Source: Paenibacillus aceti
Lineage (GTDB): Bacteria > Bacillota > Bacilli > Paenibacillales > Paenibacillaceae
Direction: 5' to 3'
Assembly (NCBI RefSeq): GCF_003614185.1
Contig: NZ_KZ987724.1
Span: 2,395,360 to 2,459,359 of the forward strand
DNA: 64,000 nt
Shown here piece by piece: positions 27,397 through 41,015 of this stretch (the stretch's first letter is position 1; every line of letters starts with the position of its first letter). A model generated the notes under the pieces. That model worked only from the letters and a program-made list of their open reading frames with translations. It was not told the origin of the DNA and did not search any database. Both the position numbers and the translations under genes were made by a program.

Positions 27397-28827
27397 TTAC
27401 TCGAACATCTCTTGATAGAGGCCGATGAATCGCCTCATCCCTTCTCGCAGCTGCTGCTCATTTAGATAGGAATAGCTCATCCGCATCCAGGAATTCATCT
27501 CCCTCAGCGGGTCGCAGATCGAGCCGGGTACGAAGGTGATCGATTGCTCGCGGCAGCTTGCAAGCAGCTCATCCATGCCTGCGGATGCTGATCCCGGCAA
27601 TTTGATCCACAGGTTAAAGCCACCATCTGGGCTATTCCACTGCCAGCCAGTGCTTTGCAGCTCCTCCTCCATAATACCTTTGCGAATCGAGAGCGCGGTC
27701 CGCAGCTTATGTAGATGCTGCTGCATGCGTTCCGAGAAGAAATAGTGGAGGAAGATCTTTTGATTCAACAAGGGGGTTCCGCTATCCGTCAATGATTTGG
27801 CCTTGAGCAGATATTTCATAATTCCGGGGCGGCAGGCCACCATAGCTATGCTTAAGCCTGGAGCTATATATTTGCTGAAGCTGCGGATGTAGATCACATG
27901 CCCGGAGGTATCATAAGCGAAGAATGGTGCAGGCGGAGCCGCCCCAAAATAAATATCCGGATAAGAATCATCCTCCACCAGTAGACAGCGATATTCCGCC
28001 GCCAGATCGACCAGCCGCTTCCGCTGCTCCGCTGGCACGGTGTACCCGGTTGGATTTTGGAAGGTAGGATTCATATAGAACAAGCGCGGTTTATATTTTC
28101 GCATCAGCTCTTCGACCTGCTCCAGGCAATAGCCGTCCGGAGTAATCTCGGTGGGAATTAGGTTCGCTCCCTGTCTTGTGAATATATCGATTGCCGGGCT
28201 ATACGTGGGCCGCTCCAAGATCACATAATCCCTGGGCTTGACCAGAACTCTGGCGATCAGATCGATCGCCTCCTGCGAGCCGGAGCTGATCAGGACCTCA
28301 TCCTCCGTCAGCTCAAAATGATACCGCCCCGTAAAATATCCTCTTAACGCTTCTCTAAGCTCCCTATCCCCCTGCGTAGTAGAATAGGTTCCGAGCACCT
28401 TCGGATACAGATCGAACACTCTTTTGACATATTCAGAGAAATAACGATTCGGCAGCAGATTAGGGTCCAGCAGTGCCTTGGAAAATTGATAGACCGCCTC
28501 GACCTGATGGATTTCGGATAGATGGCTGTCATGAACATATGCCGAGATGATCGGGTCCTGCTGCACTGCAACTGGCGGCCACGTACTCCCAGGCTGCACA
28601 TAATAGCCGGACTTATCTTTTACATATACCTTCGCGTTCTGTTTCAGTAATTGGTAGGCTTTGAAGACGGTCAAGCGATGCACCCCGAATTCCGACGCCA
28701 ATGACCGAACGGAAGGAAGCCTCTCATGGGCTTTCCATTCTCCGCGTCTGATTCGCTCAAGAAGATAATCATAGACCTGTTCAAACAGTTTATCGGAATT
28801 CGCATTTAGAAAAATAGCCTTTTTCAC
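27397..28827 (-). CDS. MocR-type GntR/aminotransferase-fold regulator
   Basis: MocR/PdxR-type regulator, 477 residues. A GntR winged helix occupies about residues 8-75 (LPSVRSLASEFGVHRLTVFKAYQLL) and a class I aminotransferase domain the rest, with SGSQEAID, NPTFQNPTGY and the PLP lysine at about K319 in SFSKYIAPGL. GTG 28827 is preferred to ATG 28833 because AAGGAGG lies 7 bases from the GTG and only 1 from the ATG. Divergent from the EamA exporter gene (122 bases apart), which it probably regulates. Confidence 0.88.
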   Translation of the reverse strand: MKKAIFLNANSDKLFEQVYDYLLERIRRGEWKAHERLPSVRSLASEFGVHRLTVFKAYQLLKQNAKVYVKDKSGYYVQPGSTWPPVAVQQDPIISAYVHDSHLSEIHQVEAVYQFSKALLDPNLLPNRYFSEYVKRVFDLYPKVLGTYSTTQGDRELREALRGYFTGRYHFELTEDEVLISSGSQEAIDLIARVLVKPRDYVILERPTYSPAIDIFTRQGANLIPTEITPDGYCLEQVEELMRKYKPRLFYMNPTFQNPTGYTVPAEQRKRLVDLAAEYRCLLVEDDSYPDIYFGAAPPAPFFAYDTSGHVIYIRSFSKYIAPGLSIAMVACRPGIMKYLLKAKSLTDSGTPLLNQKIFLHYFFSERMQQHLHKLRTALSIRKGIMEEELQSTGWQWNSPDGGFNLWIKLPGSASAGMDELLASCREQSITFVPGSICDPLREMNSWMRMSYSYLNEQQLREGMRRFIGLYQEMFE

Positions 28828-28949
28828 GGCCATCCCTCCTTCTCCCCACATTATATATGATATATTCTCTAGCTGGAATCTGTTCTATGTTTAATAATCT
28901 GTTCTATTCCTTTCCCTGTAATATAAAACAATACTAAGGAGGAATAGAC

Positions 28950-29878
28950 ATGATACTAGTAAATTATTTGCTGATGTGCCTAATTTTTGGGACGACCTTT
29001 CTGGCTATTAAAATAGGAATCGATGCAGGGGCGCCGCCCTTCTTCTCAGCGGGAATTCGCTTTCTGACGGCAGGAAGCGTTCTATTGTTATGGATGGTTG
29101 GCAAACGAAAAGCAAGTTTCTCCCTTTTGCTGCGCAAGGAAATGCTCCTGACAGGAACGGGGTTAACCTTCGGGGTATTCACGACTCTTTATTGGGCCGA
29201 GCAGTATTTGAGCTCCGGGATTGCAGCCATCCTGTCGGCAACGGCCCCCCTAATGATTTTGCTGCTGCAGACCGTCATCGCCCGGCAGCGGCTGGCGCTT
29301 AGCTCGTTGACAGGCTGTCTCATAGGTTCTGCTGGCCTCGTTTTGCTGTTATTGCCCGGCATCAATGTAAGCTTCAGCAAGCTGTGGGTGCTTGGATGTG
29401 CGGCCGTTTTATTGGGCCAAGTTTTCTATTCGGCTGGTACCGTGTATTCGCGCCGTGTCGTGCAAAGGTTTCAAGATGTATCTCCCATCGCCCTGAATGC
29501 GGCACAAATGATGTATGGCGGCGCGCTGTTGCTTATTTTATCCTTATTCACCGAGAAGATTCATATTGGGACAATGCTTGCGCCAAACGCGATTTTATCG
29601 CTCTTATTTTTAATCATTGCCGGATCAATGACGGGACATACAATTTTTTATTGGCTGATCGCCAAAACCAATCCAGTGTTTCCATCCACCTGGCTTATAT
29701 ATCGCCTCTAATCGCCCTTTGTCTTGGCGCTGTTTTGTATGGGGAGCCGGTTTCGCTTGTATCTGTAGCTGGCGGAATTACCATTATCATCGGCATCATC
29801 TTCATCAACCTGGACAATTTGAAGACCCTGGTGTTCAAAAGCAAACCTGCGGGGAAAAAGACTGGGGAAACGGTGTGA
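28950..29878 (+). pseudogene. EamA/DMT family exporter, interrupted by a frameshift
   Basis: Ten-segment drug/metabolite transporter with two EamA repeats. The first frame (from ATG 28950, GGAGG ahead) runs 253 codons and stops just after FPSTWLIYRL at about 29709. The missing C-terminal portion continues in another frame at the same spot (AYISPLIALCLGAVLYGEPV... to a stop at 29878). One extra base near 29694-29696 would join the two into a normal protein of about 309 residues. Either a recent inactivating mutation or a sequencing error. No slippery sequence is evident. Confidence 0.85.
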
Positions 29879-29883
29879 TTGGT

Positions 29884-29909
29884 CTATAGCGTTTCTCAGT
29901 TTCGTTAGC
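29884..29909. repeat. Family A repeat, single reverse unit
   Basis: CTATAGCGTTTCTCAGTTTCGTTAG matches the reverse unit of family A with changes in the core. It sits directly after the EamA reading frame. Confidence 0.6.
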
Positions 29910-29921
29910 GAATTCAGCATG

Positions 29922-29953
29922 CAAGAAGCCGACCTTAAAGGATCGGCTTCTTG
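29922..29953. terminator. Hairpin between EamA and hpdA
   Basis: An 11-bp stem CAAGAAGCCGA/TCGGCTTCTTG lies between two convergent genes. No T-run follows on either strand, so it may be a weak bidirectional terminator or only an RNA-stabilising hairpin. Confidence 0.5.
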
Positions 29954-30029
29954 TACATCGCGGCCGCTCATCCTTGAAGTGGCCTCGATTGGAGGTTTTC
30001 ATATCAAAAGCGGACTTCTGAACAACCTC

Positions 30030-31013
30030 TTAAAACGGCGTATTAGAGCCTATATAGCAATGAATCCCTCTCTCTTCAAAGACAGAAATGTACGGAATAA
30101 GCTCTGTTGGATCCATGCTCTCTAGTTCAGTAAACGGATAAACCACGCCAAGCTGGGTCCACTTGCTATCACCCATTCGGTGGAAAGGCAATAAATTGAT
30201 TTCTTTCAGGTTCAAGCTGGCCATGAAATCAGCTGTTTTAATCATATCTTTCATATTGTGATTGAAGCCTGGAATGACAGGTTTCCGAATGATCAATCTC
30301 CCCTTAAATTCAGGACCTGCTGCGATTGTGATATTATCGAGAACCTGTTTGTTAGACATTCCCGTTTCTTCAATATGCTTCTCATTATCCATATTTTTCA
30401 AGTCCATAAACATAAAATCAATGTATGGAATAATCGTGCGGAAGGTCTCACTTGGTACACAGCCGCAAGTTTCTATCGCCGTATGAATATACGCCTCTTT
30501 GCAATATTTCAATGCCGCTAATAGAAAGTCTTTCTGTACCATAGGCTCCCCGCCAGTAAAGGTAACACCGCCATTGCCGCTCCAGAACTGCCTGTCTCTA
30601 GAGACAATATGGATGAAGTCATCTAGTGTAAACTCTTTCCCGCTGACTCTAATAGCCTCATCCCTGCACGCTTCAGCGCATTCATAGGTGTTACAGCCTG
30701 AGCATATATCCCGATTGATAACGACCTTATTCTGATTGTTAATATGGATCGCATTGCGGGGACATCTTTCTATGCATCTTTCACAGTTGAACGCTTCATA
30801 TTTGCATTTCTGTTCCGCATACATTAATCTTTGACGTACTTTCCAGCCTTCTGGATTGGCACACCAGGTACATTTAAGTGGGCATCCTGATAAGAAGAAT
30901 AAGGTTCTACAGCCTGGACCATCATGAACAGAATAAGCCTGTACATCAAATACGATACCTTTTGCCTGTTGTCGTTCTGCTCCAATTGGCATACTTAGAT
31001 TCATACGACTCAT
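30030..31013 (-). CDS. hpdA: Glycyl-radical enzyme activase, 4-hydroxyphenylacetate decarboxylase type
   Basis: Radical SAM activase of 327 residues that installs the glycyl radical on the decarboxylase large subunit. The SAM-cluster motif is C44-x3-C48-x2-C51 within LSGCPLKCTWCANPEGW. A ferredoxin-like insert with eight further cysteines (C70, C77, C80, C84; C104, C107, C112, C116) supplies two extra 4Fe-4S clusters, as in the activases of glycerol dehydratase and HpdB. The GGE motif is seen as TFTGGEPM. Start ATG 31013 has AAGAGG 8 bases upstream. Last gene of the hpdB-hpdC-MFS-hpdA operon. Confidence 0.93.
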   Translation of the reverse strand: MSRMNLSMPIGAERQQAKGIVFDVQAYSVHDGPGCRTLFFLSGCPLKCTWCANPEGWKVRQRLMYAEQKCKYEAFNCERCIERCPRNAIHINNQNKVVINRDICSGCNTYECAEACRDEAIRVSGKEFTLDDFIHIVSRDRQFWSGNGGVTFTGGEPMVQKDFLLAALKYCKEAYIHTAIETCGCVPSETFRTIIPYIDFMFMDLKNMDNEKHIEETGMSNKQVLDNITIAAGPEFKGRLIIRKPVIPGFNHNMKDMIKTADFMASLNLKEINLLPFHRMGDSKWTQLGVVYPFTELESMDPTELIPYISVFEERGIHCYIGSNTPF

Positions 31014-31044
31014 GCTCGGATCTACCTCTTTTCATCTTATGAAT

Positions 31045-32358
31045 TTAAGCTTGCGAGCTGCTTGTCACATCCTCTTCATTGCTCTGCGATTTTTTCTTCT
31101 CGGCAGTGAGCGGGAGCAAGCAGGCAAAGCCAATCGATACGGCAAAGGAACCAAGGGCAAATAACATGGAGCCCAAGTATGAACCAAAATTATCGTAGAA
31201 GAAACCGCCCATATAGGTTCCAACTGCTGGACCAATCCCCATGACCACCAGGGTAGCTAACCCCCAAATTTTGCCGATACTTTTTCTACCGTAAATTGCT
31301 CCTGCATAGCCCGCGCATCCACCTGGCTCGATTGCCCAATATATGGAGAAGAGAACACATGCGATGATTCCAAAGAATATATGGGTTTTGGTCAGCAGCA
31401 ATAATGCACAAGCAAGTACCCCAATCGCCGGTCCGAAGATTAGCATAATCTTTCTACCTTTAGCTTCATTATGGTATTTTATGACCAGCTTATCAGCGAT
31501 AACCCCAAGTAAAGGCATTGTAATAATGCCGCTGACCCCAATCACGATATACAAATTGGTAGCTGTCCCCAGATCCAATTTAACATCTTGAACAAAGAAG
31601 TTTACAACTTGTGACCAAACTAGAAATTCTGCCAGCATACTGGTCAGAAAAGCGATGATTGTCCCCCACACCGGGAAAGTCTTAAATGCTTCCTTTACAG
31701 TCCAGCTTCTTTGCTCTTGTACAGCCCCGTCAGCAGCATTTGGCATTTCGCCAAATGGCTTGACTCCATAGTCCTCAGGATTCTTGCGGGCAAATAGAGC
31801 CGCTATGATTAATGCGATGAACACAACGACTGCCAGGATTTGCATGGCCACGCGCCAATCCATACTCTTCAGAATTCCTTTGAGGCCGAGACTTAAAACA
31901 ACTTGTGCCATTGGAGCCCCCATAAAGGCCCAGCCCCACATTTTTGCATAGCTGGTACCAACATACCATTTCCTTACCGAAACCGTGGAAGAGACCCATA
32001 GCATCCCCGTCCCAATTCCGGCGAAGAACGAATATGTAAATAGGTATCCAGCATAGCTGCTTTGCAAGCTTGTTAAATAAAATCCCAAAGCCCCGAATAC
32101 AGCACCTAGCACAAAAGCTGGCCTTGTCCCCCATTTATCGATAATCATACCGCTAAAGAACGCTGTAACGGCATAGATCGTCATCATTAAGGAATAACCT
32201 AATGAGGTGGCGGATACGGTAAGGCCCATTCCTTCTGACATTGGACCTAATAATATGCTAAAGGTCGACCGGTATCCAAACAAACAAAATACGGCTAACC
32301 AAGAAGCGATGACCACATAGATCCCTGTTCTGCGAGCTTGTTGATCATTCACACTCAT
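31045..32358 (-). CDS. MFS transporter in the decarboxylase operon, probable aryl-acetate carrier
   Basis: Twelve-segment major facilitator of about 437 residues, nearest in character to the oxalate/formate-antiporter-like group (FGYRSTFSILLGPM, GLGYSL-type region, DKWGTRPAF loop between segments 2 and 3). It lies between hpdC and hpdA, 31 bases before hpdA, so its probable job is uptake of the arylacetate or exchange with product. Start is uncertain: ATG 32376, ATG 32358 and GTG 32352 are all in frame, and the only ribosome-binding-like stretch (GGGGGG) sits between them, which favours 32358 or 32352. Confidence 0.82.
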   Translation of the reverse strand: MSVNDQQARRTGIYVVIASWLAVFCLFGYRSTFSILLGPMSEGMGLTVSATSLGYSLMMTIYAVTAFFSGMIIDKWGTRPAFVLGAVFGALGFYLTSLQSSYAGYLFTYSFFAGIGTGMLWVSSTVSVRKWYVGTSYAKMWGWAFMGAPMAQVVLSLGLKGILKSMDWRVAMQILAVVVFIALIIAALFARKNPEDYGVKPFGEMPNAADGAVQEQRSWTVKEAFKTFPVWGTIIAFLTSMLAEFLVWSQVVNFFVQDVKLDLGTATNLYIVIGVSGIITMPLLGVIADKLVIKYHNEAKGRKIMLIFGPAIGVLACALLLLTKTHIFFGIIACVLFSIYWAIEPGGCAGYAGAIYGRKSIGKIWGLATLVVMGIGPAVGTYMGGFFYDNFGSYLGSMLFALGSFAVSIGFACLLPLTAEKKKSQSNEEDVTSSSQA

Positions 32359-32387
32359 TCCCCCCATTCGACTCATCCATTAATCGG

Positions 32388-32413
32388 AAAGGAAGGGTAC
32401 GTACCCTTCCTTT
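32388..32413 (-). promoter_or_regulatory. Intra-operon hairpin between hpdC and the MFS gene
   Basis: Perfect palindrome with 13-bp arms (AAAGGAAGGGTAC and its complement) and no T-run after it. In the hpdC-MFS gap such a hairpin would protect the 3' end of an hpdBC message or attenuate the downstream genes. Confidence 0.7.
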
Positions 32414-32429
32414 GTGCAATTTATCCTAG

Positions 32430-32711
32430 TTATTTAACCTCTGTATATTCCTTCTTAGCCGCAAAATCTTCACATTGGAATGCCTTCAAATCTTCGTATG
32501 TCCAGAAGCCCTTCTTAGAAGCTTTACATTCCCCTAAGAAAGGTGTTTCACCAGCAGCATAGTTGGAGCAAAATTTACATTTAGGAATAGCAGAGCATTC
32601 CGGACATACAGGAGTGTCAATCATGACCAGTTCATTCGTTAATTTGCAAATGCCTTTGGCAACATCCACAGGAATAAAGTTCCGGCAATCATCATGTCTT
32701 AGTTCACACAT
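32430..32711 (-). CDS. hpdC: 4-hydroxyphenylacetate decarboxylase small subunit (two 4Fe-4S clusters)
   Basis: Iron-sulfur small subunit of 93 residues. Relative to the clostridial protein as I recall it (ligands H3, C6, C19, C36 and C42, C45, C58, C76) the equivalents here are H6, C9, C22, C39 for the first cluster and C45, C48, C62, C80 for the second, all present with correct spacing apart from a one-residue insertion. This subunit is found only with 4-hydroxyphenylacetate-type decarboxylases, not with most other glycyl radical enzymes. It starts 3 bases after the hpdB stop. Confidence 0.93.
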   Translation of the reverse strand: MCELRHDDCRNFIPVDVAKGICKLTNELVMIDTPVCPECSAIPKCKFCSNYAAGETPFLGECKASKKGFWTYEDLKAFQCEDFAAKKEYTEVK

Positions 32712-32714
32712 TGT

Positions 32715-35426
32715 CTACACCCCTTCATATTCTGTTCTAGCAATTACTTCGTCTTGAATTGGCTTACCGATCTCACACCAATATTGCGTAAAGCCTGCAA
32801 CACGTACTAGCAGCTCACGATAATTTTCTGGTGATTTCTGCGCATCGATCAACATCTTAGAGTCAACGATGTTATATTGAATGTGATATCCGCCTTTTCT
32901 CATGTAAGCTCTAGTCAAGTCAAGCAGCTTCTTAGATCCTTCAACGCCAATAACAGCATTTGGATGAATCTTCATATTCATTTGCGAGTTTTGAGATTGG
33001 GAATGATCCCAACATGTAGCAGACTCAAACAATGCGTATGGACCATTTCTGTCTGTGCCTGGATATGCGGACATCGAGCCATCTGCATAGGTTGTTCCAG
33101 CTAGACGTCCATCTGGTGATGCTAAAGTAACCGCACCTTGTGCACCGTGTGTAGAAACCGAGATTTGACAAGGATACAATGGTTTCGCATATAAGGATTC
33201 ATAGTCTCCACACATTTCACAGAACCATTCCTCATAGGCTCTCAAGATTTCATCTGCATATGGATCGTCATTTCCATACTTAGGTGCTCTTAGGCAATCC
33301 GAGTGAATATCATCGTATTTGTCGATACCATCCTTTTTCTCTTGTGTGCCGAGCGAGAAGCTTCCAACTTCTGCAGCGGTTTTGAAGCCAAAGTTATTGA
33401 GAAGAGCTTCTTTCATCTCATCGAACGTATATTTCTTATCATCGTATACAAGCTTCTTCATCGCGGCTAACGAGTTGACCATATTGATCGTTCCGCAGCT
33501 TTCAATATTATATGTGGCATTGAAGCGATAGCCCATATTACCAATATGCTGGCCTTTATCCAAGCAATCTGGCTTCAATAAGGAATTGAAGATCGCCATA
33601 TTATGCTTGCGCCAAATATCATGCTGAATATTGTTCGTAGTGGTCAAGCAATCACAAGTCATCGCATAGTATTCCTGGAATGTCTCCCACAGTTCTTCGT
33701 AAGTGTCCAGTTTTTTATTATGTGGAGGATATACTTGTTCACCTGTACGGTGATCAAAACCATTGGTTAACACTAATTCAAGCACCTTTGGATTGGCAAT
33801 GAAGTGGACGCCAACGCTTGTAGGCTGTCCTGCACCGCCAGGAATCCAGTATTTGCGGTCATTCAAGACGAGCTCTTTCCAAATGCCCGGCGATGTTTCG
33901 AGACAACCGCCGATAGAGAATGCTCGTGCATTGGTCAAATCCATGCCTTCCTTGGCATAGTTCTTCATCATGAACTCAATGCCTCCGCGATTGTTCATCC
34001 AGGCTGGATATCCGGCTCCCATCTTGTCACACTCGATTGCTTTCAACAAGAATTCTTCCGGCAGCTTGTCATCATACAGAACAGAAAGTGTAGGTTGTGT
34101 GGAATCACAACGGATACCTGCTTCAAGAATCAACATCTCCAGACGGTTAGCTGCTGATTTTCCATCTCTTGTTACACCGCCCAGAGCGAGGTTGTTGAAT
34201 GTGTTACCTGCTAATACGCCTCCAACTACACCGGCACAAGCGAAGCAGTCAATCAAACTGAATTTCACGCGGTGGCATTCCAATAGCTCAACAACTTCAT
34301 CCTCGGTAATTCGGCCTGCTTCCATATCTTGTTCGAACCAAGGCCACAGAATTTGTCCCACTCTCCCAGGTGACATACCGGAGATCGCATCTTCATTAAT
34401 AACAGCAAGATGAATGAAGGTTGTTAATTGCAAAGCTTCTCTGAATGTACGCGGCTGTTTATGTGCAATATGATAGAGTATGTCTACTAAATCACCATAT
34501 TCTTTCCGTTCTACTTCTGTTTTGGCAACCTGCTGTAAACGAGCCGCTTCTTTAGCATAGTTTTCGATCCAGCCGCTAACGCCTTCTAATATTGTTTTGG
34601 CAGCTTCATAGAAATAAAGCCTGTCCATACCGGTAATGCCATCTCCATGAGCGCGTCCTGCAACTGCATCCTTGCATTCATTGCACATCTCAATCAAGCT
34701 ATCAAAGCCATACTGCAATGGATAGTAGTAATTGATTACCTCACGGCCTTGCGGCAGTGTATAACCGGAGTCGAACATACAGATTACAGATCTCATAATC
34801 TGTTCTTTCATTTGGTATTCAGGAACCATTTGTTCGTATTTGTGGCCTAAATCATCAACGGATTTGCCAACCCACTCCCTTGCCAACTTCACAAGTGCCG
34901 GAACCTCTTCAGCACGCATACCAAACTTGCCGGCAATAGATGTCACCTTACCAACGGATTGTGTTACGTTACCGCCGCCAGTACCGAAGGTACTCACTTC
35001 ACCCGCGCTCGCGGAACCGCTCTTAAGAGCCGCCTGGAACAGTTCATCCTCTTTGGCCATGTAATAGGATTCTGACATCCAGGGCATCGGGAATGAACCA
35101 CGATAATGATATGTCTTACCTCCAACTAGCAGCTCACCTGGATAAATCGTAGGTGTAATGTGAAGAAAAGCACTTTTCAATGCTTCAGCTCTTCTCATAA
35201 TGACAAGATCGCCCTCAGTCTCCTGGAACTTTCTCGTGTACCAGTAAGGAAATTCACAGGATGCAGATGATAGCGTTTGCAAAAATAAATTTTTCAGCTT
35301 TTTAACTCTTGGATGGGGATCCTTCTTCACTTCACGTCCAACAATTTCATCAGGAGCGGTACCGCCATACTGAAAACTAATCGGAACCCCTTTTTCCTTT
35401 AGAATGTCTTCTAATTTTAATGACAT
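32715..35426 (-). CDS. hpdB: 4-hydroxyphenylacetate decarboxylase large subunit, glycyl radical enzyme
   Basis: Glycyl radical enzyme of 903 residues that decarboxylates 4-hydroxyphenylacetate to p-cresol without oxygen. The radical loop RVAGF has its glycine at G878. The thiyl cysteine C508 and the adjacent acid E510 are in [12 protein letters not shown]349, H541 and E642 also match the clostridial active-site residues I recall (S344, C503, E505, H536, E637, G873), each shifted by exactly five. H541 and E642 are the residues expected to bind the phenolic hydroxyl, which argues for hydroxylated arylacetates rather than phenylacetate or indoleacetate. First gene of its operon, GGGGAGG ahead of ATG 35426. 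Confidence 0.93.
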
Positions 35427-35472
35427 GGTATTAAAACCTCCCCTAAGCTTAGATAAGCTTGATTTACTTATA

Positions 35473-35533
35473 AGTATAAAGAAGGGGCCCCCGTGTAAGT
35501 AATTGTCCGATCGTATGATTTAAGTATGATTAA
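35473..35533 (-). promoter_or_regulatory. hpdB promoter region with direct repeat, candidate activator site
   Basis: Minus-strand TATACT (35473-35478) with a poor -35 (TTACTT, 35497-35502, 18-base spacer). Just upstream are two copies of AATCATAC (35513-35520 and 35524-35531), exactly 11 bases apart, one helical turn. A GGGGCCCC palindrome lies within the spacer. The arrangement suits an activator binding next to a weak -35 box, most likely the PocR-LuxR protein. Confidence 0.55.
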
Positions 35534-35538
35534 CTGTA

Positions 35539-35572
35539 TAAAAAAGATGTAAAGATAATTATCTTTACATCT
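35539..35572 (-). terminator. Terminator of the sensory operon
   Basis: Perfect palindrome with 14-bp arms (AGATGTAAAGATAA and its complement, 35545-35572), followed by a T-run on the minus strand. It separates the three-gene sensory operon from hpdB. Confidence 0.9.
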
Positions 35573-35587
35573 AAAGTGGTAGGGCAA

Positions 35588-36472
35588 CTATCCGTTTAAG
35601 CCATGATATTGATTCTTCTGGTAGAATATTTCATCATTCAATACTTGTTCCAAAATGTTTATAGTGTTCTTCGTGTGTTTATTTGTGACCATTTCCTTCT
35701 TGAACTCGTCCAAAGCCAATTTTTTATCTCCCAGCCGCTGGTATACGTCGACAAATCGCTTGACGGTTCGGACTAAAGCCACCTCAAGGGATTCATCCGT
35801 CATCCTTTCTTGATCATCCATACGATGCAAGATGTACCCTATTTTTTTCATTACACTCAGAGGCTCTAAAACCTTAATCCAATCCTTATGTTCCCTCTCA
35901 TCCAACAATAAAGATATACTGGATATTCCTGCTGACCAATGGATCTTCTGAATTGTTTCATTGGATACAGGCAGCATATTGGTTACCTTTTCACAATACT
36001 CCATATAGAGCAATGCCTTCTGGCATTGTTCTTCGTCTTTGAGCTTGAGCATGTTCAGAAATACCTGAATAATACTATCCAAATCTTCCTTGTGCTGGTC
36101 TGTTTCTTTCTTTTTCATTTGCAAATGAATAACACTTTTTAATTCTTGCATATCTACAGGCTTTGATAGAAAATAATTCGCTTCTACTTCAATGCTGCGT
36201 AATCTGTCTGCCACATCACTTAGTACAGTCAACATGACAATTCGGATGTCTTTCGTTTTTCTATTGTTTCTTAGTCTCTGACATACCTCAAATCCATTTA
36301 GACCAGGCAGCATAACATCCAGCAATATTAAATCCGGCAAATAATGCTCTGCCATTTGCAAAGCTTCCATCCCGTGGAACGCCTGCAGCACCTCATAATT
36401 CCAGGCCTCGATAATATCCTTATACAATTCACAATTTTCCCGGTTGTCATCTACAAGCAATATCCTGTTCAT
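35588..36472 (-). CDS. Response regulator without DNA-binding domain
   Basis: Receiver protein of 294 residues. The receiver (residues 1-120) has the acidic pair DD near residue 8, phosphoacceptor D52 in LLDVMLPGLNG and the lysine of FLSKPVD. The remaining 170 residues are helical and carry no recognisable helix-turn-helix. The pattern DSIIQVFLNMLKLKD...EYCEKV resembles the first helices of HD-GYP domains with the metal ligands lost, so a degenerate HD-GYP output is my best guess. It is last of three genes, 10 bases after the kinase, and probably acts by protein contact, for instance with the PocR-LuxR protein. Confidence 0.85.
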   Translation of the reverse strand: MNRILLVDDNRENCELYKDIIEAWNYEVLQAFHGMEALQMAEHYLPDLILLDVMLPGLNGFEVCQRLRNNRKTKDIRIVMLTVLSDVADRLRSIEVEANYFLSKPVDMQELKSVIHLQMKKKETDQHKEDLDSIIQVFLNMLKLKDEEQCQKALLYMEYCEKVTNMLPVSNETIQKIHWSAGISSISLLLDEREHKDWIKVLEPLSVMKKIGYILHRMDDQERMTDESLEVALVRTVKRFVDVYQRLGDKKLALDEFKKEMVTNKHTKNTINILEQVLNDEIFYQKNQYHGLNG

Positions 36473-36482
36473 CTACTATCCC

Positions 36483-38489
36483 TCATTTAAGATTTACGTT
36501 ATTCTTCTTTGGTATAAAGATTGTAAATTCTGCTCCTTCTCCTAAAGAGCTCTTTAAGCTAACAGCGCCCTGATGCAATTCAACCATTCTTTTTACAATC
36601 GGCAGACCAAGCCCAGTACCGTCATATTGCCGGCTATAAGAGCCATCAACTTGTTCAAAAGGCTCAAATATCCGATCATGATCCTGTTCATCGATGCCGA
36701 TCCCGAAATCCCTCACCGTAATACTGTGGTAAGACGGATTTTCTATACAGTTAATATGAATTTCCCCATTGTTGTAGCTGAATTTAATCGCATTTAACAG
36801 CAGATTCAAAATAATTTGCCGAAATTTGTTCCCATCCACATACAATCTCATCTGCTCTGGCTCAACCTGCAGACGGATTTGTATATTTTTGTTCGAAGCT
36901 AAACCCGCGACATCAAAGATGCAGGCACCGATCAGTTCCTGGGCAAGAAACTCGTTTTTCATCAAATACATTTTTCCGGATTCGATCTTGGAAATGTCTA
37001 ATATATCATTAATCAATTTCAACAAATGACCTGCATTATTGCTAATAACCTGCAGATATTTAATTTGCTTCTCATTCAGCGGTCCAAAAACTCCATTTTC
37101 TAAAGTTAAAGAACTGCTAATAATGCTATTAAGCGGTGTTTTCAGTTCATGACTCATATTCGCCAAAAACTGTGATTTGACATCATCGCCTCTCTTCGCC
37201 TCGAACATAGCAACTTGCAAATCCCTTGTTCGAATGGCAACTTGTTCCTCTAATTCGGTTTTGTATTTATTCAGCTCCAGCTCATAGCTCAAGCGTTTCT
37301 GTTCACTTAGATCCAGATTCACCGCCAGCTCGTGGATTAGCTGCAATAGTTGAATCCCTTCATCTTCAGTTTTGGTAAGCCACTCTGACTTGACGGTTAT
37401 ATCCCTCTTCCCTGCAGTGATTTCCTTCAAATAATTCATCGATTCTTTAAGCGGGCGAGTGATCTTATTAGCAAAATAACGGCCAATAAACAACAGTACG
37501 AACAGGAACAAGCAGGTAATAATCAATATCAAGTTGTTGTTGGCATTTACTACCGTATTGAATTTATATTTTGGAATGCCGACGCCTAACTCACCAACAA
37601 CATCACCATCTATATTCTTGATACCACTATCCAAATAGTAGTGAATTTCTGTACCTATTAACACCTTCCCGTATGTATAGTTCCCCTCTACACCCATCGA
37701 CTTGTCCTGCAAAGCGTTACTGTCCTCTAAGGCAACCGGATTTTTACTGCCAATATAATTGCTGCTCTCCTTGCTCTTAATGTTGGAAGTCACGCGAATA
37801 CCATCCATCCCAATAGACAAGAAGGACTCTGAGATGCTGTTTGTGTACATTTCCGGAAAATATGGATCGTTATTGATGATATCGGCAAACAGAATATACC
37901 CTAGCAATTGATCATTTGTACCATACACAGGTGCTATAACGATTCCCATCAACATATTTTTGTACAAACGGTTATTCTGTTCTGCGCTGCTTACCTTCAC
38001 ACATGACTCTTGATAAAGAGTGGAGTCTGAATAAAATATGTCATCAACATGCTGTCGATCCATAGTAGCTATAGAAGCTTTCCTCATATTAATTCTCTCA
38101 AGGTAACTCTTCTTCAACAGCATCTCCGGAGCTTTTAGTTCCTTGTTGCTAAAGAGCACACTCCCTTTAGGATCGAAAAAAAGGATCATATCTACATAGT
38201 TTAATACCTTGTTCAAATCCTCTAACTCTGATTCAATTCCTGAACTGTTCCTCTCGTATGCTGCATTCTGCAGCCGCTCCTCAAGGCTTAAAAAATCAGC
38301 AATACTTTGCATTTCATCCATTCGGGAGGAAATAATCGACTGCGCGTTTCGAAGTCCATTTTTCAAATATTCAGCCGCACTTGAATCATTCAATTTAAAC
38401 ATAATGATGTTTGAAATGATTAAAAACAGAAACATAGGCATAATAATCGTACCAAAAACCAATAAAATGGTGCGTTTTTTAATCGACAT
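36483..38489 (-). CDS. Cache-domain sensor histidine kinase
   Basis: Membrane kinase of 668 residues. N-terminal membrane segment (about 8-30), a Cache-like external sensor (about 40-310, including ELGVGIPKYKF before the second membrane segment near 318-336), HAMP-type linker (NKITRPLKESMNYLKEI), coiled coil, HisKA with phosphoacceptor H447 in ANMSHELKTPLNS, and HATPase with DFGIGIDEQDHDRIFEPF and GTGLGLPIVKRM. The external sensor suggests it reads a small acid outside the cell, plausibly the arylacetate. It follows the PocR-LuxR gene by 9 bases. Confidence 0.9.
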   Translation of the reverse strand: MSIKKRTILLVFGTIIMPMFLFLIISNIIMFKLNDSSAAEYLKNGLRNAQSIISSRMDEMQSIADFLSLEERLQNAAYERNSSGIESELEDLNKVLNYVDMILFFDPKGSVLFSNKELKAPEMLLKKSYLERINMRKASIATMDRQHVDDIFYSDSTLYQESCVKVSSAEQNNRLYKNMLMGIVIAPVYGTNDQLLGYILFADIINNDPYFPEMYTNSISESFLSIGMDGIRVTSNIKSKESSNYIGSKNPVALEDSNALQDKSMGVEGNYTYGKVLIGTEIHYYLDSGIKNIDGDVVGELGVGIPKYKFNTVVNANNNLILIITCLFLFVLLFIGRYFANKITRPLKESMNYLKEITAGKRDITVKSEWLTKTEDEGIQLLQLIHELAVNLDLSEQKRLSYELELNKYKTELEEQVAIRTRDLQVAMFEAKRGDDVKSQFLANMSHELKTPLNSIISSSLTLENGVFGPLNEKQIKYLQVISNNAGHLLKLINDILDISKIESGKMYLMKNEFLAQELIGACIFDVAGLASNKNIQIRLQVEPEQMRLYVDGNKFRQIILNLLLNAIKFSYNNGEIHINCIENPSYHSITVRDFGIGIDEQDHDRIFEPFEQVDGSYSRQYDGTGLGLPIVKRMVELHQGAVSLKSSLGEGAEFTIFIPKKNNVNLK

Positions 38490-38498
38490 AGCTGCTCC

Positions 38499-39215
38499 TC
38501 ACAAATCCAGTTCATTCTGCTTCAGGAAGATAATAAGCTCGATACGATCTTTCAATCCCAATTTATTCAATATATTAGTGATGTGAGTTTTCACAGTAGC
38601 TTCGCTGATGTTGAGCTTATTGGCAATCTCTTTATTGGAAAGACCCCTGTATAGCTTATTAATGACTTCTATTTCACGTTTCGTAATTTTATTCTCTAGT
38701 AAGAATAATTCTGATGAACTGTGGACGGGCTCCTCCTCGACAACTTCTTCCGAAACAGGCACTTGATTGAGCAAAGCGAAGCTGTTTAATAGTAGCTCGA
38801 TCAGCATATCCAATTTATCATTTGCCCTCTCAGTACCATAACAATAATCATTGAGCAGCGATCCCATTCCTATAGCAATAACCTGCTTGTTAAACATGAT
38901 CGGAACTACAAAATTGCATCTTCCCATATAGCACGAGTAAATATATTGCTTTTGATTCAGCAGTACATGAGAAATTACATTCTGTCTTTCCATTTGACAG
39001 CGATGGTTGTTCTGTTGGTAAATGTCGTAGCAAAATAAAGAAGAGTTGGACCACACCGTCAATGGCTTCCCTTCCAGATTCAAGATACATAAACTTATAT
39101 CAAACGCTTTCGCAAAGCTGTCCTGAAATGCTTGAATTTTATTCTTACCAATCTTGAATAACCATTTCTGACTATGATCAATATTAGGTTGTTTATCCTC
39201 TTTCATTGTTCTCAT
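38499..39215 (-). CDS. PocR-domain LuxR-type transcriptional regulator
   Basis: Regulator of 238 residues. The N-terminal PocR ligand-sensing domain (about 20-140) shows QDSFAKAFDISLCILNLEG and the conserved cysteines of LFCYDIYQQNNHRC and YSCYMGRC. A C-terminal LuxR helix-turn-helix follows (about 175-232, ITKREIEVINKLYRGLSNKEI). It lacks a receiver domain. PocR domains sense small organic ligands such as propanediol; here an aromatic acid is the inferred ligand. ATG 39215 is preferred to ATG 39221 because AAAGGG is then correctly spaced. First gene of the sensory operon. Confidence 0.88.
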   Translation of the reverse strand: MRTMKEDKQPNIDHSQKWLFKIGKNKIQAFQDSFAKAFDISLCILNLEGKPLTVWSNSSLFCYDIYQQNNHRCQMERQNVISHVLLNQKQYIYSCYMGRCNFVVPIMFNKQVIAIGMGSLLNDYCYGTERANDKLDMLIELLLNSFALLNQVPVSEEVVEEEPVHSSSELFLLENKITKREIEVINKLYRGLSNKEIANKLNISEATVKTHITNILNKLGLKDRIELIIFLKQNELDL

Positions 39216-39361
39216 AAACATCCCTTTCTTGCTATAGACTTCACTTCTCGCATAATAAGGAATGCGCTTTCATTTCTAAACACTATGGGACTCGTTCAGC
39301 GCTACTATATACGTTATTAGAAATCTTATCTATCATTTCAGTCACACTGCCATAGCTATTC

Positions 39362-39392
39362 AAAAAAGCCAACCAGACATGTCTGGTTGGCT
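39362..39392 (-). terminator. Terminator after the rRNA methyltransferase gene
   Basis: Perfect palindrome with 13-bp arms (AGCCAACCAGACA and its complement) and TTTTTT on the minus strand. It isolates the methyltransferase gene from the sensory operon. Confidence 0.9.
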
Positions 39393-39445
39393 AATACTCT
39401 TCAAACCAATATTTTCTTGAACGTACCTTATTAAACCTAAGATCA

Positions 39446-40816
39446 TTAAAACGTCTTGCTGCGAACCTCAAAGATCGCAAATTTCAGATAGTGTCCCTCA
39501 TCTACGCCGAGGATTTGCGGATGGTCCTTGCCAGCCGCACGCCATTCGACAAGACGTAATACTTTGCCTGCATCGGCAGCGGCATCCTGGATTGTCTGCA
39601 GGAATAAATCGGGACGCATATGGTATGAACAGCTGGCGGTAACCAGATAGCCGCCTTCATTCACCAGTTTCAGCCCCTGTAGATTAATCTCCTTGTATCC
39701 ACGACAGGCACCCTTGACTGCCGATCTGGTCTTGGCAAAGGCCGGCGGATCGAGAATAACGACATCCCAGGTACGCCCGCCGCCCGCGGTCATCTTCACG
39801 GATGTATCGACCTTGCCATCCTGCGCTCCACGCCGATTCCGATCGTCCAGCCCTTTCACCTGACTGCGGAGATAATCAAACGCATCCGCCACGACAAATT
39901 CTACGCGATCCGTAAATCCGTTCAACTCCACATTCACTCTGGCGCTCTCAATCGCATGCTCGGAAATATCGAGACAGGTTACTTTTTTGGCGCCGTATTT
40001 GCATGCATGAAGTGTAAAGCTGCCGGTATGAGAGAAGCACTCCAGCACAGTCGCCCCATCCCAATAAGGGAACGTCACTACCTTACCGTTGGAATTAACC
40101 GGCATAAGCTTAGGCGCTTCCCCAGGCTCAGCGACCTCCTTCAGCTCAATTCCACTGCGTTGGCCCCAGCCGGTCATCAGCGGCGCAATCGAAGCCCGGT
40201 TTTCACGCTGATCGAAGAAATAGCCCGTCTTCTGCCCTTGCTCGATATCCACCTTAACCTTCAATCCATTTTCGAGGATCGTCACATAACGTGGCGCTTC
40301 CCCGTACAATGGTCCTTTTACCTGCTCCAGCCCTTCCATCTCACGGATGGACACATCGCTGCGCTCATATATGGCTGTCGGCCCAACTACCTTCACAAGC
40401 GCCTCGACGATCTCCTTGCGGCATTGATCCATGCCGAGCGTCAACAGCTGCACAACGAGCACATCCGCGAAACGGTCCACGATCAACCCAGGCAGGAAAT
40501 CCGCTTCCCCGTAGACCAATCGATAGGCATCGCCTGGTACGAATCTCTCTCTATGATGCAGACACTCGGTGAACCGCTCCGTGAAAAACTCCACATCCAT
40601 CTTGTCCAGCGGACGGTAGGACACAGCGCGTACCGTTATTTGCGAAGCCGGATTGTAATAGCCCGTCGTGAGAAACTTGCGACGATGATCATAAATCTGC
40701 ACCAGGCTACCTGGTTCCGGCTCCCCCTCCACCAGCTCGATTTCATTTTTGTATACCCAAGGATGGGCTTGTTCCAAGCGCTTCTTGCGACTTTTGTGTA
40801 ATATAACGGATGCCAA
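39446..40816 (-). CDS. Class I SAM-dependent rRNA methyltransferase (RlmI/YwbD-like)
   Basis: 23S rRNA m5C methyltransferase-like protein of 456 residues. An N-terminal PUA domain (HPWVYKNEIE...) is followed by a Rossmann methyltransferase with VLECFSHTGSFTLHA (SAM site), LDPPAFAKTR (catalytic motif) and a C-terminal SCSYHMRPD. TTG 40816 is chosen because GGAG is 8 bases upstream; the in-frame GTG 40825 overlaps the binding site. The protein is about 60 residues longer than usual because of two polar inserts: one before the SAM motif (about 215-255) and one before LDPPAF (about 325-350). Confidence 0.88.
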   Translation of the reverse strand: MASVILHKSRKKRLEQAHPWVYKNEIELVEGEPEPGSLVQIYDHRRKFLTTGYYNPASQITVRAVSYRPLDKMDVEFFTERFTECLHHRERFVPGDAYRLVYGEADFLPGLIVDRFADVLVVQLLTLGMDQCRKEIVEALVKVVGPTAIYERSDVSIREMEGLEQVKGPLYGEAPRYVTILENGLKVKVDIEQGQKTGYFFDQRENRASIAPLMTGWGQRSGIELKEVAEPGEAPKLMPVNSNGKVVTFPYWDGATVLECFSHTGSFTLHACKYGAKKVTCLDISEHAIESARVNVELNGFTDRVEFVVADAFDYLRSQVKGLDDRNRRGAQDGKVDTSVKMTAGGGRTWDVVILDPPAFAKTRSAVKGACRGYKEINLQGLKLVNEGGYLVTASCSYHMRPDLFLQTIQDAAADAGKVLRLVEWRAAGKDHPQILGVDEGHYLKFAIFEVRSKTF

Positions 40817-41015
40817 TCTATCCACTCCTTCATCATTTCCATGTTATAACTTGCTCATATGCCAATATCAGCCCTTATAGGCTCCCTGCGGGCATGGATG
40901 TCCCACCAGCAGCATATAAGTAACTTGTACACCTATATGTCGAGCTTAATTCCTGAGCATCCTCGGGATCAAAGCTGGACTCTTGAAACGACCTCTAAAA
41001 AAAGGGGGAAGACGG

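Follow-up and report, generated by a model that had tools for sequence, protein, structure and literature searches.

How did a Paenibacillus genome come to hold a complete gene set predicted to decarboxylate 4-hydroxyphenylacetate (HPA) to p-cresol, a metabolite of the gut, the kidney and livestock odour, and from where would such a host obtain the substrate? The locus was analyzed within a stretch of 64,000 nucleotides of Paenibacillus aceti (contig NZ_KZ987724.1 of assembly GCF_003614185.1), hereafter the window, to which all positions refer. It contains the genes of an HPA decarboxylase (HPAD), i.e. hpdB, hpdC and hpdA, together with a gene for a carrier of the major facilitator superfamily (MFS) and three sensor genes upstream. 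We favor the reading that these seven genes form a horizontally acquired module that would sense HPA, import it and decarboxylate it to p-cresol, with a probability of about 0.7. At the level of sequence, this reading is carried by the gene content, the catalytic residues, the grouping of HpdB with HPADs, the insertion of a discrete segment and the linkage of a PocR-LuxR regulator gene to hpdB; substrate, transport direction, regulation and energy gain are the parts that we infer. Publications are cited by their PMC numbers.

The HpdBCA enzyme and its two clades

All three enzyme components exceeded the cut-offs of their NCBIfam equivalogs, i.e. HpdB (NF033715, 1650.5 bits vs 1150), HpdC (NF033716, 87.7 bits vs 50) and HpdA (NF033717, 446.4 bits vs 420), which bears out the complete HPA decarboxylase that an earlier, sequence-only reading of the window had proposed. 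The window HpdB was 56% identical to the crystallised enzyme of C. scatologenes (2y8n). Their alignment placed S349, C508, E510, H541, E642 and G878 opposite S344, C503, E505, H536, E637 and G873, at the constant shift of five that the sequence-only reading had given. In an 82-row alignment, R223, F405, C503, E505, H536, E637 and G873 (2y8n numbering, as for the clade positions below) were invariant across the non-gapped rows, and S344 and G345 were kept in 80 of 80 of these. In HpdC, the residues H6, C9, C22, C36, C45, C48, C62 and C80 matched chain B of 2y8n and were each kept in 79 or 80 of 80 sequences. We take these eight positions to be the cluster ligands, all of which had likewise been noted as present before.

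The roles of G878 (glycyl radical), C508 (thiyl radical), E510 (Glu1) and E642 (Glu2, contacting the substrate hydroxyl) follow PMC6181972 and PMC4979209. On the basis of PMC4979209, the presence of Glu642 would argue against an unsubstituted substrate such as that of PhdB. Identity as an indoleacetate decarboxylase (IAD) was rejected, as NF033718 gave 701 bits against a cut-off of 1100 and both Glu2 and HpdC are present; the two IADs in our alignment lack E637 and H536. With the large-subunit equivalog, the four key residues, the small Fe-S subunit, a cognate activase and the grouping among HPADs all found, the sequence supports a complete HpdBCA system that is an HPAD and not an IAD. The reaction type is well supported; conversion of HPA to p-cresol is predicted, and the substrate range of the clade to which the enzyme belongs is putative.

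Relatives were taken from a genome scan, in which 80 of 89 confirmed loci were retained; neither the tree nor the clade counts include three partial HpdB rows (L107, L109 and L113) and a 429-aa frame (L148). A quick maximum-likelihood tree (LG+G4) was built from 84 rows without C. difficile HPAD, Tannerella or PhdB sequences; branch support came from the Shimodaira-Hasegawa-like approximate likelihood-ratio test (SH-aLRT) only, with no bootstrap, and the tree carried a long-branch warning. It comprised 79 HPAD rows, including the window and 2y8n, and five outgroup rows (two IADs and three other glycyl radical enzymes). The HPAD rows were split from all five outgroup rows with an SH-aLRT of 100, so that the tree check suggested earlier for HpdB came out on the side of HPAD, in a tree lacking PhdB.

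Within the HPADs, two clades were found. Clade A contained 37 rows including 2y8n (SH-aLRT 100), and clade B contained 42 rows including the window (SH-aLRT 99). Members of clade B belong to Thermosyntropha, Clostridium, Tepidibacter, Desulfosporosinus, Phascolarctobacterium and Chloroflexi, with many Clostridia among them. The window lay inside a 37-row subset of clade B (SH-aLRT 98); in a tentative placement within the clade, nearest by path were a Clostridia metagenome-assembled genome (MAG), Thermosyntropha lipolytica and a Negativicutes MAG. In 22 columns, each clade had one residue in at least 90% of rows and the residues differed between clades. The window lacks the clade-A signature, with S537 in place of Gly532 and an additional G221. 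A single NCBIfam equivalog nevertheless spans both clades, its HpdB cut-off being exceeded in 36 of 36 chosen HPAD genomes.

Two side observations concern the distribution of HPADs. At four loci (L066, L100, L147 and L148), Clostridiales VE202-21 encodes one HPAD of each clade, an IAD and another gene that resembles an HPAD; the latter (L148) extends over two frames and has an HpdC match. Also, the HPAD of a genome titled Lutibacter sp. B2 (Bacteroidota; L046) was nested among Clostridia, which may reflect a mislabel, contamination or transfer.

An island with a carrier and sensor genes

In the two nearest congeners (picked by the closest homologue of the flanking protein at 39446-40825, 92% and 90%), the sequences that flank the locus are collinear with about 135 bp between them, i.e. 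the insertion is missing at this site. The island is about 9.6 kb long and is occupied by the seven genes. Its GC content is 0.415 (29900-39445) compared with 0.511 for the remaining window, individual genes ranging from 36.5 to 45.9%. Among 41 genomes of the genus, 296 of the family and 398 of the class, the HpdB cut-off was passed by the source genome only; the family and class sets were sampled from larger groups, and they overlap the genus set. Taken together, the gap in the congeners, the low GC content and the sole HpdB in the sampled genomes indicate that the seven genes were most likely acquired by horizontal transfer. The remaining open reading frames of the island overlap the seven genes or fall between them.

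The coordinates of all features are collected in Table 1. They confirmed the minus-strand operon of hpdB, hpdC, MFS gene and hpdA described earlier; the intergenic gaps of 3, 53 and 31 nt are consistent with a single operon. The sequence-only reading had overlooked the island borders and the three sensor genes, encoding a PocR-LuxR protein, a histidine kinase and a response regulator, which are contiguous (gaps of 9 and 10 nt) and lie directly upstream of hpdB. Because the response regulator gene is separated from hpdB by 161 nt that contain a terminator-like hairpin, the sensor trio and the hpd genes are probably transcribed as two units. This hairpin was the window's own upstream repeat and was rejected as an operator, as it reads as a terminator.

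Table 1. Features of the island in window coordinates
Feature	Position	Strand	Basis
hpdB, glycyl radical large subunit	32715-35426	minus	NCBIfam NF033715, alignment, tree
hpdC, small Fe-S subunit	32430-32711	minus	NCBIfam NF033716, alignment
MFS carrier	31045-32376	minus	closest NCBIfam models: L-lactate and oxalate/formate antiport families, each below cut-off
hpdA, radical SAM activating enzyme	30030-31013	minus	NF033717; CPLKCTWC motif present
PocR-domain/LuxR-type helix-turn-helix (HTH) regulator, candidate arylacetate sensor	38499-39221	minus	Pfam PocR 60.8 bits, GerE 71.6 bits
Sensor histidine kinase, membrane-bound by inference	36483-38489	minus	HisKA and HATPase_c
Response regulator	35588-36472	minus	Response_reg 94 bits; no HD match
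Terminator-like hairpin in the gap between sensor genes and hpdB	35545-35572	minus	12-bp stem and T run; consensus match only
Island, most likely horizontally acquired	29880-39445 (approximate borders)	n/a	flank alignments stop at 29823 and restart at 39446/39450

Gene presence around hpdB was counted in flanks that reached 8 kb at most and were shorter in several cases, with bit thresholds set by us, so that presences are lower bounds. Of the 41 clade-B loci, 29 had an MFS orthologue close to hpdB and 28 had one between hpdC and hpdA; the corresponding numbers for clade A were 5 and 0 of 36 loci. The 28 clade-B orthologues shared 56-67% identity in 27 cases and 46% in L066. The MFS gene had been regarded as an insertion that departs from the clostridial gene order and suggests dedicated substrate uptake. 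The first part does not hold, since an MFS gene between hpdC and hpdA is the usual order in clade B, to which many Clostridia belong. The second part is plausible, MFS import of arylacetates having been proposed before for Olsenella (PMC6181972).

For the PocR-LuxR protein, 36 HPAD genomes, a non-random choice of our own from the 80 loci, were searched, and 12 of them gave a match at E <= 1e-12. All ten strong matches (E < 1e-38) shared a contig with hpdB, at distances of 0.4-9.0 kb from it. The eleventh was weaker (5.2e-16) and about 0.45 kb from hpdB, which brings linkage to 11 of the 36 genomes; the twelfth genome had an HTH-only match distant from hpdB, and one genome had two extra weak matches elsewhere. 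Within the genus, two other genomes gave C-terminal matches only, and at E <= 1e-30 no match other than the window's own gene was found among the 398 class genomes. These results make the sensor genes candidates for an HPA-sensing regulator of p-cresol producers. No sensor set linked to HPAD appeared among the literature matches listed (titles and opening abstract lines, with thin coverage of subscription journals), and PMC8745165, retrieved for Paenibacillus with p-cresol or HPAD, concerns another subject in its excerpted text.

The PocR-LuxR model, built from 12 sequences (mean predicted local distance difference test, pLDDT, 79.7; predicted template modelling score, pTM, 0.55), combines a mixed alpha/beta sensor part with a helical C-terminal part. 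Among the 50 Foldseek matches listed, whole-length matches to the LuxR-type receptors SdiA, CviR and RhlR and to CodY had good E-values at query TM-scores (TMq) of 0.23-0.35; the model would thus indicate fold likeness only to LuxR-type ligand receptors, at low TM. C64, C75 and C97 of this protein were invariant in 12 of 12 orthologues, and they could serve metal binding or redox sensing, which would fit an oxygen-sensitive enzyme. For the kinase, an AlphaFold2 model (mean pLDDT 74.6, pTM 0.47) has an N-terminal helix (3-68), an alpha/beta part up to about 306, a second long helix and the kinase core; as modelled, it shows the sensor region as the part between the two long helices. The 50 Foldseek matches listed for it were mostly to the kinase core and named no ligand for the sensor region. 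A DNA-binding output of the response regulator was considered and rejected, as Pfam found no DNA-binding domain and four relatives show an HD domain.

Two genes beside the island were also noted. An EamA-type transporter gene (28950-29878, plus strand) is split into two frames, the longest of 253 aa, and forms a 300-aa frame in both nearest congeners, so that the window has either a real frameshift or a sequencing error. Just outside the island, 27397-28851 (minus strand) encodes a MocR/PdxR-like GntR-aminotransferase regulator (286.6 bits, where the PdxR model requires 320).

Proposed function and competing explanations

In the module as we picture it, the PocR-LuxR protein would detect arylacetate inside the cell and the histidine kinase would detect it outside, upon which hpdB-hpdC-MFS-hpdA would be switched on. 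The MFS carrier would bring HPA into the cell, and HpdA, a radical SAM enzyme, would install the glycyl radical on G878 of HpdB. Under anoxic conditions, the thiyl radical of C508, together with E510, E642 and H541, would then convert HPA to p-cresol and CO2, and the neutral cresol would exit the cell. Since an anion would be imported and its decarboxylation consumes a proton, the module could contribute to the proton gradient, or it might simply remove a toxic acid. According to PMC13285125, a proton-gradient role has been proposed, the physiological role is not known, and tyrosine genes are absent from the vicinity of most HPADs. PMC8588808 reports that HPA harms C. difficile, which benefits from HPA removal; this would give a further motive for carrying an HPA-removing module. 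HpaB-type aerobic HPA degradation had no match (PF11794) in this genome.

Several observations weigh against this proposal. (i) Position 532, counted among the active-site residues in PMC4979209, is occupied by Ser in all 42 clade-B rows; of the 37 clade-A rows, 36 have Gly and L075 has Ala. (ii) Clade B has one extra residue after position 216, near I219 (at least 90% of rows each way). (iii) Identity to an assayed HPAD is only 56%, and we know of no clade-B enzyme that has been assayed. (iv) No PocR-LuxR match at E <= 1e-12 was obtained in 24 of the 36 HPAD genomes, so that other HPAD regulators must exist and the trio is not the sole one. (v) The complete sensor trio was present within the flanks of only 8 of the 41 loci in clade B and 3 of the 36 in clade A, and the set is hence not universal; at L053, kinase and response regulator genes lie within the flank and the PocR-LuxR gene just beyond it. 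(vi) The HD domain found in 4 of 4 relatives scanned is not recognisable in the window's response regulator, which in a 13-sequence alignment has neither the HDIGK nor the HHExxNGxGxP-like motif; deviations also occur in L052 and L066, i.e. loss of the HD output is not unique to the window. (vii) Six clade-B upstream regions contained no perfect inverted repeat with 7-nt arms, and the window lacks the operator repeat of C. difficile (see below).

Points (i) and (ii), together with the 22 clade-diagnostic columns and the co-occurrence of both clades and an IAD in VE202-21, could signify that clade B is a sister specificity, preferring a different p-hydroxylated arylacetate (e.g. a ring-substituted one) over HPA. 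We regard this as unlikely, given that E637, H536, S344, C503 and E505, said to act on the para-hydroxyl/carboxylate side, are unchanged in clade B and that one equivalog covers both clades. A wider scenario, in which a mobile arylacetate cassette with its own sensing pair, common to HPAD and IAD loci, crosses distant lineages and conserves energy by import and decarboxylation, the clade-B Ser532 enzyme having another or wider substrate than HPA, is likewise speculative and improbable. A passenger island, unexpressed or partly decayed in its host, would agree with its occurrence in 1 of 41 genus genomes and with the unrecognisable output domain of the response regulator. We consider it very unlikely, because all seven frames are open and the catalytic residues intact, and because another pyruvate formate-lyase (PFL)-type glycyl radical enzyme encoded in the genome indicates that such chemistry is at home here.

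The sequence-only reading had this facultative spore former ferment tyrosine-derived arylacetates; on such a view, the host would itself make HPA from tyrosine and ferment it to p-cresol, with a secondary role for the carrier. Two general 2-oxoacid:ferredoxin oxidoreductase loci in the genome, one classed by family models and the other by PF01855 alone, may act promiscuously on hydroxyphenylpyruvate, and promiscuity of VOR is discussed in PMC13285125. On the other side, no indolepyruvate oxidoreductase (IOR) alpha subunit scored above cut-off in this genome, and the seven island genes include no tyrosine gene and none of the hpdDEFGJK kind. Olsenella scatoligenes uses arylacetates and not the amino acids, which together with the usual distance of HPADs from tyrosine genes (PMC13285125) speaks against the tyrosine route. 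We therefore judge it quite unlikely and do not retain it. Because a sensor and carrier set is present, the substrate would come from outside, and the module looks built for imported HPA rather than for tyrosine fermentation.

Comparison with known systems

With the HPAD of C. scatologenes (CsdBC, 2y8n/2yaj), the window system shares the catalytic residues, the eight-ligand small subunit and a dedicated activase. It differs from it by an identity of only 56%, Ser for Gly532, the one-residue insert, the MFS gene between the genes for the small subunit and the activase, the three sensor genes and the lack of an adjacent hpdDEFGJK cluster such as that described in PMC13285125. Two IAD loci, of Collinsella (L146) and VE202-21 (L147), with IAD equivalog scores of 1768.5 and 1703.4 bits, resemble the window in having MFS, activase, PocR and kinase homologues (25-37% identity); at L146, the response regulator is matched too (47% across its receiver part). 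Unlike the window, both lack an HpdC match within the flanks searched, Glu637 and His536.

The hpdBCA genes of C. difficile encode the same enzyme type and are induced by exogenous HPA; in PMC7925072 the sensing regulator is stated as unknown and the HPA transporter as unidentified. The C. difficile operator repeat AAAAAG-N13-CTTTTT is absent upstream of the window hpdB. The HPAD and IAD clusters of Olsenella scatoligenes, from another phylum, include an MFS carrier as in the window, proposed as an arylacetate importer; the word 'regulator' occurs 0 times in the main text of PMC6181972. Set beside these systems, MFS uptake has already been proposed and the trio is the new part, a named and testable candidate regulator, and the island suggests that p-cresol formation can be transferred with its whole module to a lineage in which the relatives sampled are without it.

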